A DNA stretch of 64,000 nucleotides from Bradyrhizobium genosp. L (lineage in GTDB: Bacteria > Pseudomonadota > Alphaproteobacteria > Rhizobiales > Xanthobacteraceae). Where the stretch lies: contig NZ_CP061378.1 in assembly GCF_015624485.1 (NCBI RefSeq), positions 3,100,001 to 3,164,000 of the forward strand, given 5' to 3'. A program made the translations under genes and the position numbers. The notes beneath the pieces were generated by a model that saw nothing but the letters and a program-made list of their open reading frames with translations, had not been told where the DNA came from and did no database searches. Every line of letters begins with the position of its first letter. Within the stretch, counting starts at the first letter, position 1. Below, piece by piece: positions 34,456 through 42,093 of this stretch.

Positions 34456-36444
34456 ATGGCGCCGCCGCAGCAGGACGCATCAGCGGTGAAGCCGCCCAAG
34501 CCCACCATATCCGCCGCCGAGAAGGCGACGCTGTTCGGCACGCTGGTCCATCTCTGGCCCTACATCTGGCCGGGTGATCGCGCCGACCTGAAGATGCGCG
34601 TGGTCTGGTCGGTGGTGCTGCTGCTGTTCGCGAAGCTTGCGACGCTGTCGGTGCCATTCACCTTCAAATGGGCCGTCGATGCGCTGAACGGCACGGGCTC
34701 GGCGCCGGTCGCATCCTCGAACTGGATGGTGTGGCTGATTGCATCGCCGGTGCTGATGACGATCAGCTACGGCGCGGTGCGCGTCCTGATGGCGGTGCTG
34801 ACGCAATGGCGCGACGGCATCTTCGCCCGCGTCGCCATGCACGCGGTGCGGCGGCTCGCCACCATCACCTTCGTGCACATGCACGAATTGTCGCTGCGCT
34901 TCCATCTCGAGCGCAAGACCGGCGGTCTGACCCGCGTCCTCGAACGCGGCCGCACCGGGATCGAGACCATCGTGCGGATGGTGATCCTGCAGCTGATGCC
35001 GACCATCGTCGAGGTGACGTTGCTGGCCGGCGTGCTGCTCTGGCAATTCGACTGGCGCTACGTGCTGGCGGTGCTGACGACCGTCGTCGTCTTCATGTAC
35101 TTCACCTATATCGCGACCCAGTGGCGGATCGAGATCCGCCGCAAGATGAACGATTCCGACACCGAGGCGAACACCAAGGCGATCGACTCGCTGCTCAACT
35201 ACGAGACGGTGAAATATTTCAGCGCCGAGGCGCGCGAGGCGAAGCGCTATGACCGCTCGATGGAGCGTTACGAGCAGGCCAGCGTCAACACTTACACTTC
35301 GCTGGCGCTGCTCAATACCGGGCAGGCGGTGATCTTCACCGCGGGATTGACCGCGACCATGCTGATGTGCGCGTTCGGCATCCGCAACGGCAGCCACACC
35401 GTCGGCGATTTCGTGCTGATCAACTCGATGATGATTCAGCTCTACCAGCCGCTGAATTTCATGGGCATGGTCTATCGCGAGATCAAGCAGGCGATCATCG
35501 ACATCGAGAAGATGTTCGAGGTGCTGGAGCGCGATGCCGAGGTGAAGGACAGTCCAGGCGCAAGACCGCTGGTGGTGTCCGCGGGCAGCGTGCGCTTCGA
35601 GGATGTCCGCTTCGCCTACGAGCCGGATAGGCCGATCCTCAAGGGCCTCAGCTTCGAGGTGCCGGCCGGCAAGACGGTCGCGATCGTCGGTCCCTCCGGC
35701 GCCGGCAAGTCGACGATCTCGCGGCTGCTGTTCCGGCTCTACGACGTCTCCAGCGGCAGCATTCTCATCGACGGCCAGGACATCAAGGCGGTGACGCAGG
35801 ACTCGCTGCGCGCGGCGATCGGCATGGTGCCGCAGGACACCGTGCTGTTCAACGACACCATCCGCTACAACATCCGCTATGGCCGCTGGGATGCCGACGA
35901 CGACGAGGTCGAGGAGGCGGCGCGGCTGGCCCAGATCGACGGCTTCATCCGGATGTCGCCGCAAGGCTATGGGACCCAGGTCGGCGAGCGCGGCCTGAAA
36001 CTCTCCGGCGGCGAGAAGCAGCGCGTCGCGATCGCGCGCACCGTGCTGAAGGCGCCGCCGATCCTGGTGCTGGACGAGGCAACCTCGGCGCTCGACAGCC
36101 ACACCGAGGCCGAGATCCAGGATGCGCTGGAGCGGGTCTCGCGCAACCGCACCTCGCTGGTGATCGCGCATCGGCTCTCGACCATCGTCGGCGCCGACGA
36201 GATCATCGTGCTGGACCAGGGCAGGATTGTCGAGCGCGGCACCCATGCCCGGCTGCTGGCCGCCGACGGCCTCTATGCCAGCATGTGGAACCGGCAGCGC
36301 GAGGCCGAGGCTGCGCGCGAAAAGCTCGCGCAGGTCGGCGACAAGGACACGGCGCCGAATCGCCTGCCGCCAGCGGTCGCGGAGGCCGCCGAGGATTCCG
36401 ACCCCGTTGCGGACGAGAAGCCCTTGCCGACCGCCGCGGAATAG
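34456..36444 (+). CDS. Atm1-like ABC half-exporter
   Basis: A membrane-spanning ABC exporter (662 residues): six TM helices in the first 320 residues, then an ATPase with Walker [10 protein letters not shown], signature L-S-G-G-E-K and Walker [23 protein letters not shown] in the coupling region is typical of the Atm1/HMT1 subfamily, which exports glutathione-linked or Fe-S-related compounds. The hydrophilic C-terminal tail is short. It is followed after 52 bp by psd; a shared transcript is likely, while a functional link is not evident. Confidence 0.92.
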
Positions 36445-39482: not shown

Positions 39483-40106
39483 TCAACCCGGCGCGACCTT
39501 GGCGATTTCGGCGGCGCCGCGCGCCGTCATGTCGATGGCAACATAGAGGATCACGGCGAGGCCGAGATAGGCGATCCAGCGCTGGGTCTGCAGCAGCCGT
39601 GCGAGGAAGCTGGCGGCTGCGCCCATCATCGCGATCGAGAGCGCGAGCCCGAACACCAGCACGATCGGCTGCTCGCGCGCCGCGCCGGCCACCGCCAGCA
39701 CATTGTCGAGCGACATCGAGACGTCGGCGACGACGATCTGGCTGGTGGCCTGCCACAGCGTCTTGCGCGGCGCCGTCGCGCCATCTGCTGCGCCGGGTTC
39801 GCCCGCCGCCTCACGTGCCGAGGCGCGCAGCTCGCGCCACATCTTCCAGCAGACCCAGAACAGCAGGATGCCACCGGCCAGAAGCAGGCCGACAATCTGC
39901 ATCAACTGTGTCGTGAGAACCGCGAACAGGATACGCAGCAAGGTCGCCGCGCCAATGCCGATCAGGATCGCCTTGCCGCGTTGGTGCTTTGGCAGCCCTG
40001 CGGCGGCAAGGCCGATCACCACGGCGTTGTCGCCAGCCAGCACGAGATCGATGACGACAACCTGCAGCAAAGCGCTGAGAGCGTCGAGCGAGAACAATTC
40101 GGACAC
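39483..40106 (-). CDS. TerC-family integral membrane protein
   Basis: A 207-residue membrane protein with seven hydrophobic segments. The paired acidic signature is present: V-I-D-L-V-L-A-G-D-N-A-V-V-I-G in TM1-2 and V-A-D-V-S-M-S-L-D-N-V-L-A-V-A-G later. Relatives (TerC, Alx, YjbE) export manganese or protect against metal stress. GTG 40106 is preferred: AGGGGAG lies about 8 bp upstream and the protein then begins at TM1; longer forms add a non-family tail. The 279 bp up to 40385 hold no gene. Confidence 0.85.
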   Translation of the reverse strand: MSELFSLDALSALLQVVVIDLVLAGDNAVVIGLAAAGLPKHQRGKAILIGIGAATLLRILFAVLTTQLMQIVGLLLAGGILLFWVCWKMWRELRASAREAAGEPGAADGATAPRKTLWQATSQIVVADVSMSLDNVLAVAGAAREQPIVLVFGLALSIAMMGAAASFLARLLQTQRWIAYLGLAVILYVAIDMTARGAAEIAKVAPG

Positions 40107-40385
40107 GGAAGGCTCCCCTTGCGCTGTGGGGAGTGGGGTCCCGTTCGACGACGCTGGCTGCCGCGGTCTGGCAGAAGCGGTTTCGTCATGGCGCGCACAT
40201 CCGCGCCGCGGGTCGAAGCAGGGCCACTCCAACTTGAGTTCCAGTCCGACATCGCAGCCGCATGGCTGCCAGAGGGGCCCGGCCTGGGGATTTACGTCGT
40301 GCAGGATATCAGACGCCGTCCACGGTGACGCGCGACGCGGCGCCGCGCGACTGCAAGCCGCGCGACGAGGCGCGCACTTGCCGGT

Positions 40386-40580
40386 TCAATCGGCGGCGTC
40401 GCGCAGCCGGTCGATCCGCTGCATCGCCTCGATCGCGAGATAGCCACCGTCGCGGTAGCGATCGCCGATCTGCCGCGCATCGCCGCTGCAATGCGGACAG
40501 ACGGCAGTGCCTTCGAACACATAACGAAGGCACTGGCGGCACAGCACCAGCGGCGGCGCGGCCTTGCTCTTCGCAGTCAC
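40386..40580 (-). CDS. 64-residue zinc-ribbon protein coupled to the radical SAM gene
   Basis: A small protein with C14-x-x-C17...C28-x-x-C31 (C-R-Q-C and C-P-H-C), a zinc-ribbon knuckle, followed by a charged helix. Its GTG start (40578-40580) overlaps the TGA of the radical SAM gene in a 4-bp GTGA, so translation is coupled and the two proteins probably work together. I do not recognise the family. It could be an accessory or carrier protein for the maturase, or a regulator. It is easily missed by gene callers because of the GTG start and size. Confidence 0.7.
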   Translation of the reverse strand: MTAKSKAAPPLVLCRQCLRYVFEGTAVCPHCSGDARQIGDRYRDGGYLAIEAMQRIDRLRDAAD

Positions 40581-41821
40581 GTGCAGCTGTCTCCAGCCGG
40601 GATCGGTTCTTCGATCAGCGCGAAACGCCCCGTGGCGAACGAGGTGGCCGGCGCATCCTCGACCTTGACGATGCGCTCGCGCAGGCCGCGTTCGGCCAGC
40701 GTCAGCACGCGGTGATGGCAATAGGGATTGTTGCCGCGCCGGCCGAGCAGGGAATCCGCCGTCCAGGTGCAGCCGCCGCGGCAGGCTTCGGCGTAATAGC
40801 AGTCGCGGCAGAAACCCCAGAGATCGTCGGTGCCACGGCCGCGGTTGAACTGCAGCGCCGGATGCGTTGCCCACAATTCGGCGATCGAGCTGGTCCTGAT
40901 GTCGCCGGCGCCGTAGCGGTCGGTGGCGAGCGACGGGCATCCCTTCACCGTGCCGTCGGCCTCCAGCCCGATCACGTTCTGCCCGGCGGGGCAGCCGCTG
41001 TAATAGCCACGGTCCGGACCGCGCCACAGCACCTCGTCGGGGCCGAAATAGCCGACATTGTTGCCGGGCAACAGCACCAGATCGCGCTCGCGCCCCCTCC
41101 GATGCAAGTCCGCCAGCAGCGGCATCAGGGTGGCGAGATCATAAGGCTGCAAAAGGATGTCGTCGTGATCGACGGCGTTGCCCATCGCGACCGTGAGCTG
41201 CACCTGCCAGTATTTGGCGCCGGCATCGATGATGACGTCCATCACGTCGGGCAGATCGGGCATCGCGGCCGAGGTGATCTGGGTGTTGACGCTTGCGGTC
41301 AATCCGATGCGGCGGCAATCGTCGAGCACGCGCAGCGCCTCGCGATACGATCCGCGCACGCCGCGCAGCCGGTCGTGCAGCGGCTCGAGCCCGTCGATGG
41401 AGACGCCGAGGCCGAGCAGGCCGGCATCGGCCGCCGCGCTGATCATGTCGTACGAGAATTTATAGCCGCCGCTCTGCATCGTGCAGTCGATGCCGTGGTC
41501 GCGGATCGCGCGGATGATTGTTAGCCAGTCCTTGCGGATAAAAGCCTCGCCGCCGATGATCGAGATCTCGCGGGTGCCGAGCTCGGCGAGCTGGCGGATG
41601 ACGTCGATGCACTCGTCGGTGCTCAATTCACCGGCGCGCTTGTGCCCGGCGCGCGAGCCGCAATGGATGCATTTCAGGTTGCAGGCCAGCGTCAGCTCCC
41701 ACACCACATACACCGGTATGCAGTCGAGCTGGTCGCTGAGCGACAGCCGCCGTCGCGGCCCATCGTCGGAGGTCTGGTCCATGGTTCGCCTGTGCTGCAT
41801 CGCCATCAGCGCCGCGCGCAT
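40577..41821 (-). CDS. Radical SAM/SPASM peptide-maturase-like enzyme
   Basis: A 414-residue radical SAM enzyme. The 4Fe-4S motif for SAM is C47-x-x-x-C51-x-x-C54. The C-terminus has the full seven-Cys SPASM pattern: C277, G290-x4-C295, C338-x2-C341-x5-C347-x3-C351 and C368, matching the canonical arrangement in PqqE, AnSME and other peptide maturases that hold two auxiliary clusters. I-I-G-G-E-A-F is the GGE motif. ATG 41821, 41806 or 41782 are possible starts; none has a strong ribosome site. Upstream on the same strand is a 66-residue DUF1843-like peptide gene, downstream a coupled zinc-ribbon gene. The inferred role is post-translational modification of that or another peptide. Confidence 0.88.
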   Translation of the reverse strand: MRAALMAMQHRRTMDQTSDDGPRRRLSLSDQLDCIPVYVVWELTLACNLKCIHCGSRAGHKRAGELSTDECIDVIRQLAELGTREISIIGGEAFIRKDWLTIIRAIRDHGIDCTMQSGGYKFSYDMISAAADAGLLGLGVSIDGLEPLHDRLRGVRGSYREALRVLDDCRRIGLTASVNTQITSAAMPDLPDVMDVIIDAGAKYWQVQLTVAMGNAVDHDDILLQPYDLATLMPLLADLHRRGRERDLVLLPGNNVGYFGPDEVLWRGPDRGYYSGCPAGQNVIGLEADGTVKGCPSLATDRYGAGDIRTSSIAELWATHPALQFNRGRGTDDLWGFCRDCYYAEACRGGCTWTADSLLGRRGNNPYCHHRVLTLAERGLRERIVKVEDAPATSFATGRFALIEEPIPAGDSCT

Positions 41822-41828
41822 GATGGAG

Positions 41829-41859
41829 CGTCGAGGCGCAACGACGACGCGCCTCGACG
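41829..41859 (-). promoter_or_regulatory. Stem-loop between the small peptide gene and the radical SAM gene
   Basis: Perfect 11-bp inverted repeat CGTCGAGGCGC / GCGCCTCGACG around a 9-nt loop, 33 bp after the peptide stop and just before the enzyme start. No T-run follows, so it looks like a partial terminator or RNA-processing/stability hairpin that would keep peptide mRNA more abundant than enzyme mRNA. Confidence 0.6.
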
Positions 41860-41892
41860 GTTACCTTGGGTCGCCTTGTGAGTGCGATGGCG

Positions 41893-42093
41893 CTAGCCGC
41901 CCTTCGCCGCGATCGCACTGTCGAGCTCCTTCAGCGCGGCCTTGAGATCGTCGGCGTCGGAGCCGTGATGATCCTTCAGCATATCATGGCCCACGGCCTT
42001 GTAGGCCTTCATCAGGTTGACGTCGTGATGCTTGCACTTGTCGCGAATGATGACGCCGTAGAGCGGACGAATTGTGCCGGAAGAGGCTGCCAT
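41893..42093 (-). CDS. DUF1843-like small protein, candidate precursor peptide
   Basis: A 66-residue protein starting M-A-A-S-S-G-T-I-R-P-L-Y-G-V; the G-T-I-R-P-L-Y-G-V-x-I block and the helical remainder resemble DUF1843 proteins (recognised from memory). One Cys (C20 in D-K-C-K-H-H-D), a His-rich middle (H22, H23, H36, H42, H43) and a C-terminal G-G. ATG 42093 has GGAG 8-9 bp upstream. It is the first gene of a unit with a SPASM radical SAM enzyme and a zinc-ribbon protein, with a hairpin after it, the usual order of RiPP precursor loci. Whether it is really modified is unproven. Confidence 0.72.
   Translation of the reverse strand: MAASSGTIRPLYGVIIRDKCKHHDVNLMKAYKAVGHDMLKDHHGSDADDLKAALKELDSAIAAKGG

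Follow-up and report, generated by a model that had tools for sequence, protein, structure and literature searches.

PlpX-type spliceases, represented here by the radical S-adenosylmethionine (SAM) model TIGR04103 (nif11-class peptide radical SAM maturase 3), are found with Nif11 precursors and PlpY and give spliceotides. PlpX, with which this chemistry was founded, removes tyramine from Xaa-Tyr-Gly (XYG) and leaves an alpha-keto amide (PMC11002830, PMC9415263; here and below, each paper is cited for individual passages of it). Its natural sites are MYG and LYG, with a mass loss of 135.0757 (PMC10533398). A second described group is the TIGR03913 GDL-motif cassette, in which one or more DUF1843-type proteins are encoded 5′ of the enzyme. 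One example, U6115_13245-13260 of Chromobacterium subtsugae, combines DUF1843 and DUF1842 genes with a TIGR03913 enzyme, is named a maturase system and is quorum-induced (PMC12114271). In B. thailandensis the DUF1842/DUF1843 genes are induced in stationary phase (PMC12322963), and a crystal structure of DUF1842 leaves the DUF1843 tail unresolved (PMC10994174). The passages of these three papers hold no link between DUF1843 and splicing; a splicease survey outside that scope (Scott et al. 2022) may include the family. Here we analyse three genes of Bradyrhizobium genosp. L that, judging from their sequences, are probably a split-gene relative of the TIGR03913/TIGR04103 (PlpX-type splicease) enzymes, excising tyramine from a mini-protein. 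They lie in a 64,000-nucleotide stretch (contig NZ_CP061378.1, positions 3,100,001 to 3,164,000; the window), from a genome assembled as one 7.4-Mb contig:

41893..42093, minus strand: 66-amino-acid DUF1843-like mini-protein, probable substrate (ATG...TAG)
42046..42078, minus strand: motif G6-TIRPLYGVI-I16, common to PlpX-type precursor cores
42055..42063, minus strand: Leu11-Tyr12-Gly13 codons, proposed splice site (XYG); LYG in 91 of 92 homologues, FYG in one
40577..41782, minus strand: 401-amino-acid radical SAM/SPASM enzyme, proposed splicease (ATG...TGA)
40577..40580, minus strand: GTGA, 4-bp overlap of enzyme stop and ribbon start
40386..40580, minus strand: 64-amino-acid zinc-ribbon protein, probable partner (GTG...TGA), placed by its TIGR03913 match and the fused/split survey

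The initial annotation of this DNA had reported three co-directional genes of these sizes, a complete seven-Cys SPASM domain and a 4-bp overlap at a GTG start, and all of these are in place. It had also taken the locus for a radical SAM/SPASM cassette of the peptide-maturation type, with the small protein as the probable substrate, which agrees with our reading. Its remark that no system with this trio had been described does not stand, since TIGR03913/DUF1843 cassettes are already in the literature. The peptide gene is preceded by a GGAG 7 nucleotides 5′ of its start codon. An alternative in-frame ATG at 41821 would extend the enzyme to 414 residues; the database copy (P0093) has 401.

The likeness to splicease precursors is clearest at the N-terminus of the mini-protein (MAASSGTIRPLYGVIIRDKCK; the stretch with the LYG site is GTIRPLYGVIIRD). 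TIGR04103 enzymes above the cut-off occur in 17 of 292 genomes of the cyanobacteria, the phylum of the Richelia record. Beside them, at all 17 loci, we collected 27 open reading frames (ORFs) with a Nif11 leader, selected by the leader end and thus independently of YG, and every one of the 27 has YG in its core. These cores include TIRPLYGVVIS, DIRPLYGVVIW and IIRPLYGVIVW (strings PTIRPLYGVVIS, PDIRPLYGVVIW and PIIRPLYGVIVW), and the corresponding stretch of the window peptide is GTIRPLYGVII, identical to precursor cores over at least seven residues. The best 10-residue match between the window peptide and the Nif11 cores scores 49 (BLOSUM62), a value reached by none of 2000 shuffles (maximum 41), and the ribbon protein, taken as a control, scores 24. 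IRPLYGV thus stands at the predicted splice site, Xaa-Tyr-Gly (L11-Y12-G13) within TIRPLYGVII. The published splice tags GGPIRPLYGLPI/GPIRPLYGLPI and the engineered form GPIRPGYGLPI carry a similar string; in an FtsZ test both LYG tag rows were not accepted and two GYG rows were (PMC10533398). Our reading of that passage is that the tag was derived from PlpA2.

The site is also held fast among close relatives. The database contains 92 homologous peptide clusters, 91 with LYG and one with FYG; Asp18 is kept in 92 of 92 and Cys20 in 91 of 92. These 92 clusters, together with 89 ribbon proteins of comparable length (among them that of the window; the search admits only 0.55 to 1.75 times the query length), show that the peptide is no chance ORF. 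The label 'DUF1843-like' given to it earlier is apt: it scores 19.6 bits against Pfam DUF1843, under the 23.3-bit cut-off. Its gene adjoins that of the enzyme, and at the GDL position of the expected Y-X(10)-GDL pattern it reads HDV, a position often ADL or SDV in its relatives. An alignment of 39 of the 92 peptides plus the window (A1) was used below as a profile source. No match appeared among NCBIfam models at E ≤ 0.1, or for the peptide profile among sequences of solved structures at E ≤ 1. An AlphaFold2 model (mean predicted local distance difference test score, pLDDT, 67.7, moderate) suggests a flexible N-terminal tail and three helices (12-19, 25-41 and 45-64), placing the proposed splice site at the border of tail and helix; a fold search with it returned nothing at E ≤ 0.001. 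Searching the source genome with PF08898 likewise gave nothing at E ≤ 0.001 because the peptide is divergent, and a search started from the peptide itself gave the window alone below E 0.1.

The enzyme carries a CxxxCxxC motif at Cys34, Cys38 and Cys41 and the full SPASM set of seven Cys (264, 282, 325, 328, 334, 338 and 355). All ten cluster Cys are invariant across 30 aligned enzymes, namely the window and 29 of 120 listed relatives (alignment A2; 7030 of the 8000 candidates scored passed E 1e-40). Its best NCBIfam match is TIGR03913 (572.2 bits, positions 3-396 of 477) and its second-best TIGR04103 (456.1 bits), and all 30 aligned sequences match both models. The mycofactocin radical SAM model (117 bits), StsB (90) and SkfB (83) follow at a distance. 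The enzyme profile finds only distant radical SAM enzymes among solved structures, SkfB being the best. Among 14 chosen relatives for which identities were computed, it is 57-62% identical to four fused TIGR03913-type enzymes, 47-49% to five TIGR04103 enzymes and 23-29% (partly over shorter stretches) to four further radical SAM enzymes encoded in the source genome. Judged by its score, the enzyme is a relative of TIGR04103 and not a member of that model; by its sequence it belongs to a distinct subfamily below the NCBI cut-off. The public name of a close relative (P0095) is merely 'radical SAM/SPASM domain-containing protein'.

The third gene completes this picture. Its product matches TIGR03913 at positions 423-461 (26.1 bits), and so it is the C-terminal domain of a TIGR03913-type enzyme encoded separately. 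The initial annotation had called the ribbon protein a partner; it does belong with the enzyme, as a split-off domain and not as a new partner. In 83 loci surveyed (the window, 80 from genomes and 2 from viral contigs, the latter of no special bearing) the ribbon is fused to the enzyme in 72 and is a separate ORF just downstream in 10, the window counted; one contig ends too early. Three further Bradyrhizobium loci (L011, L013 and L014) carry the enzyme and a separate ribbon, with the overlap at the same point, reading ATGA where the window has GTGA. A tree of 78 rows built by a quick method (the window, 33 of the 82 loci L011-L092, the 24 loci L123-L146 and 20 of the 120 listed proteins) places the window in a 24-row clade next to fused enzymes, its support being a Shimodaira–Hasegawa-like approximate likelihood ratio test (SH-aLRT) of 99, the only support measure used. 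The clade holds 7 split rows and 17 short enzymes, the latter classed by the enzyme protein alone. Separate ribbons also occur outside it (L053, L082, L085 and L092). A comparable arrangement is seen in Nostoc (C057), where a precursor and a TIGR04103 enzyme are followed, with a 4-bp overlap, by a 71-residue protein in the position held here by the ribbon gene; PlpX-type systems also have a small protein gene immediately 3′ of the enzyme.

As a check on its reading, the initial annotation had asked whether DUF1843 genes mostly lack a linked radical SAM gene. In Pseudomonas they do not: independent searches of 199 genomes for DUF1843 and for TIGR03913 each picked out the same 15, and in all 15 the two families share a contig. 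With two DUF1843 profiles, one built from the surveyed loci and one from A1, DUF1843-type domains were found in 81 of the 83 loci, 208 domains in total and three per locus in 59 of 81; many of these domains come from Pseudomonas loci that are nearly identical, which means that the counts are not independent of one another. At the two loci where no DUF1843 was recognised (L082 and L085, myxobacterial), the ORF 5′ of the enzyme still holds VIRPLYGVFIRD or MVRPMYGIFIRD. The peptide itself occurs in 4 of 242 genomes of the genus, the window's own and those at the L011, L013 and L014 coordinates. The cassette is sporadic, as an enzyme match at E ≤ 1e-90 was found in 2 of 397 genomes of the order, and at class level both families co-occur in 1 of 274 genomes, too sparse to inform. 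In one genome of the class-level set (G825) the enzyme is matched at 382.7 bits and DUF1843 not at all; at this locus (L149) the upstream ORF has VYG three times.

Compared with the TIGR03913 cassettes, then, the locus has a DUF1843-like protein 5′ of the enzyme, and it shares the enzyme core, the C-terminal zinc ribbon (here a separate, overlapping gene) and a conserved Tyr where the domain begins. It differs in having a single stand-alone mini-protein where three are usual, no DUF1842, the ribbon in its own gene, an enzyme below the family cut-off, IRP before LYG, and Cys20. The C. subtsugae operon, with three upstream proteins and a DUF1842, is unlike it in the same way. Compared with the PlpX-type spliceases it shares the enzyme similarity and the site motif, and it lacks a Nif11/NHLP leader: its site is N-terminal to a helical mini-protein rather than at the C-terminal end of a leader peptide, and its zinc-ribbon partner is not clearly homologous to PlpY-like proteins. 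It is also unlike a leader-type ribosomally synthesized and post-translationally modified peptide (Nif11/NHLP spliceotide) system in having no leader with a conserved Gly-Gly, and no peptidase or adjacent exporter among the neighbours scanned.

We favour splicing because of the similarity to TIGR04103, the match of the motif to its precursor cores, the near-invariance of LYG, the persistence of the motif upstream of the enzyme at L082 and L085, the co-occurrence in Pseudomonas and the overlapping third gene in Nostoc. The zinc-ribbon protein, made from a translationally coupled gene, would join the enzyme, and this would bind the flexible N-terminal part of the mini-protein at the motif (G)TIRPLYGVII. 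A 5′-deoxyadenosyl radical, with the auxiliary clusters, would then take tyramine (C8H9NO, 135.0757 Da) out of Tyr12, and the backbone would be rejoined. We infer Leu11-Tyr12-Gly13 as the excision site, with an expected shift of −135.08 Da rather than the −2 Da suggested at first. The helical remainder would stay attached, because neither a Nif11-type leader nor a conserved Gly-Gly site nor a protease next to the trio was found. The expected product would be a small protein, probably intracellular, that carries a reactive ketoamide close to the N-terminus; that it stays in the cell is suggested by the lack of a peptidase and of an adjacent exporter among the scanned neighbours. A protease inhibitor is perhaps the first use to consider, because a review ties spliced residues to protease inhibition (PMC10373908).

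Several observations weigh against this proposal. For the enzyme, neither the TIGR03913 score nor the TIGR04103 score reaches its cut-off (591.75 and 725 bits); the TIGR03913 scores of enzyme and ribbon, scanned as separate proteins, would pass the first of these if summed. We take TIGR04103 to be IPR026482, the InterPro family of PlpX. Of these two names, only IPR026482 turned up in the papers searched, in PMC11002830. Across the wider family, an XYG site with X other than Pro is not maintained: the 208 domains read LYA in 99, PYG in 67, LYG in 35, MYA in 5 and MYG in 2, so that LYG or MYG is found in just 37, and the commonest order of sites is PYG-LYA-LYA (41 of 81 loci). Pro before Tyr always pairs with Gly after it (PYG 67, PYA 0), and Leu mostly with Ala (LYA 99, LYG 35). 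At 6 of 81 loci the DUF1843 matches have no YG; three of these (L070, L076 and L080) have PYG elsewhere in the same ORF, and at L036, L059 and L081 none was found, the L059 contig being cut about 900 bases upstream. An annotated Azospirillum DUF1843 protein reads MYMA, and a second Bradyrhizobium cassette (L116, described below) has a 73-residue frame with AYG ahead of a 52.6%-identical enzyme that includes the ribbon. If LYA and PYG sites are not accepted as well, splicease activity would be confined to this and some other subfamilies. Homology of the ribbon to PlpY-like proteins is not clear: their comparison gave an hhalign probability of 4.6 (P 0.0087) with only the last helices paired, and in hmmsearch only 1 of 118 ribbons (L069, 5.6 bits, E 0.063) exceeded the best of 1180 shuffles (2.3 bits). 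By eye the last helices look alike (YFEAKKCIERI in L012, FRAKKALDRIE in PlpY-like proteins); with neither program supportive, we dropped homology and keep 'same position only'. Finally, Tyr12 may be kept only for folding, as helix 12-19 starts there in the weak structural model.

The Tyr is kept in all 208 domains, which would also fit another radical reaction at the same Leu-Tyr-Gly site, such as a C-C or C-O crosslink from Tyr, an MftC-like decarboxylation or an epimerisation. Mycofactocin chemistry also targets a Tyr (PMC8326336), and the many LYA or PYG relatives are sites that a strict XYG splicease might not accept. Such a reaction is nonetheless unlikely, for the nearest family with known chemistry is TIGR04103, whose cores the window motif equals, and the mycofactocin model scores 117 bits against 456. 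We think it quite unlikely that the DUF1843-like protein is instead a carrier, chaperone or structural protein with the true substrate encoded elsewhere. The grouping of its domains in threes (59 of 81 loci) suits that idea, as do the reports that the DUF1842 beta-barrel can be fused and that self-assembly of repeated DUF1843 paralogues was at one time suspected (PMC10994174); the splicease-like motif at the domain start, and its persistence 5′ of the enzyme at both loci where DUF1843 goes unrecognised, speak against it.

Cys20, the His pair and the C-terminal Gly-Gly had been put forward as candidate modified or cleavage positions. Gly-Gly (4 of 92 homologues) and the His pair (8 of 92) are not conserved, and Cys20, although nearly invariant in the subfamily, has a Cys counterpart in only 4 of the 208 wider-family domains. 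A sactipeptide- or ranthipeptide-like thioether, or another oxidation at these residues, would suit the conserved Cys20 and the full SPASM domain, yet any Cys within 20 residues of the Tyr is found in just 7 of 208 domains, the sactipeptide maturases SkfB and StsB score far lower, and the peptide has one Cys, where such systems have several core Cys and a maturase match; we consider this chemistry highly improbable. Once the motifs had been compared, we no longer took Cys20 for the modified residue. It could have a part after splicing, if Cys20 or the neighbouring lysines of RDKCK captured the Leu11 ketoamide within the mini-protein to give a self-crosslinked beta-amino-acid protein; this is very unlikely, and if true, backbone splicing would serve protein architecture rather than a secreted peptide. 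That the locus is decayed or misread, the ribbon having been separated by a frameshift in a fused enzyme gene, is hardly credible: most relatives are fused and the window starts its ribbon with GTG against ATG in three relatives, but the 4-bp overlap lies at the identical point in all four Bradyrhizobium loci (the ground on which we rejected this origin), short ribbon proteins and enzymes of about 400 residues are many, and the clade of split and short enzymes that holds the window has 24 rows and an SH-aLRT of 99.

Outside the trio, the neighbourhood offers two features of note:

40237-40290, minus strand: terC RNA (RF03067, 55.8 bits), 5′ of the gene of a TerC/YjbE-type membrane protein (40232..39483)
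34456-36444, plus strand: MsbA-like ABC transporter, about 4 kb past the ribbon gene, behind lipid-synthesis genes

The TerC-family gene 3′ of the trio is probably a separate unit because it has its own terC RNA, itself a probable metal-responsive element. A short-chain dehydrogenase/reductase (SDR) gene 5′ of the trio is divergently oriented, and further neighbours encode a phosphatidylserine decarboxylase, a CDP-alcohol phosphatidyltransferase, RraA-like, DUF2889, AMP-ligase and TetR proteins and a thiolase. Among 11 further genes scanned with Pfam (34.4-48.7 kb; the rest of the genome was not searched) there is no peptidase, and one gene is without any Pfam match. The flanks of L011, L013 and L014 are mostly syntenic with the window; the terC gene is upstream of the cassette in L011 (4700-5484), downstream in the window (39489-40295) and unmatched at L013 and L014, and the neighbourhood is thus rearranged. 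At these four loci the gap between peptide and enzyme genes (41783-41892 in the window) folds somewhat better than shuffles (4 of 4, z −1.8 to −3.6), into predicted structures that differ from one another. It is possibly an RNA element that sets the ratio of peptide to enzyme.

Some relatives elsewhere are worth recording. The genome of L014 (Bradyrhizobium sp. LTSP885) contains a second cassette (L116, 1-3141), fused and TIGR03913-like. L149, from the class of the Burkholderia record, has its three VYG in a DPIIQPVYGVVIDP-type repeat, and L141, from the cyanobacterial phylum, has MYGMP seven times; both look like multi-site precursors. An Aureibacter plasmid (L170) encodes three 56-residue DUF1843 proteins (LYA, MYA and PYG), then a fused enzyme of 49% identity; rimK and a methyltransferase gene adjoin it. 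On a Tropicibacter oceani plasmid (L169) a 48%-identical radical SAM gene is clustered with a second radical SAM gene, a phosphotransferase, a trypsin-like peptidase and an M23 peptidase, with no DUF1843 or Nif11 gene among the annotations. A 71%-identical enzyme in the assembly of the ciliate Halteria grandinella (P0168) is perhaps bacterial contamination.

What is new here is the probable chemistry, that is tyramine splicing with a leaderless mini-protein as substrate and a separate ribbon gene. If this is true, the trio would to our knowledge be among the smallest natural splicing systems, made up of a leaderless protein of 66 residues, an enzyme of 401 and a partner of 64. With the ribbon gene naturally separate, the role of this domain can be addressed while the enzyme is left whole. 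The substrate is short, and might be turned into a tool for genetic labelling of the kind that the existing splice tag provides. A loss of tyramine here would bear on whether the large TIGR03913/DUF1843 family consists of spliceases that act on folded proteins.

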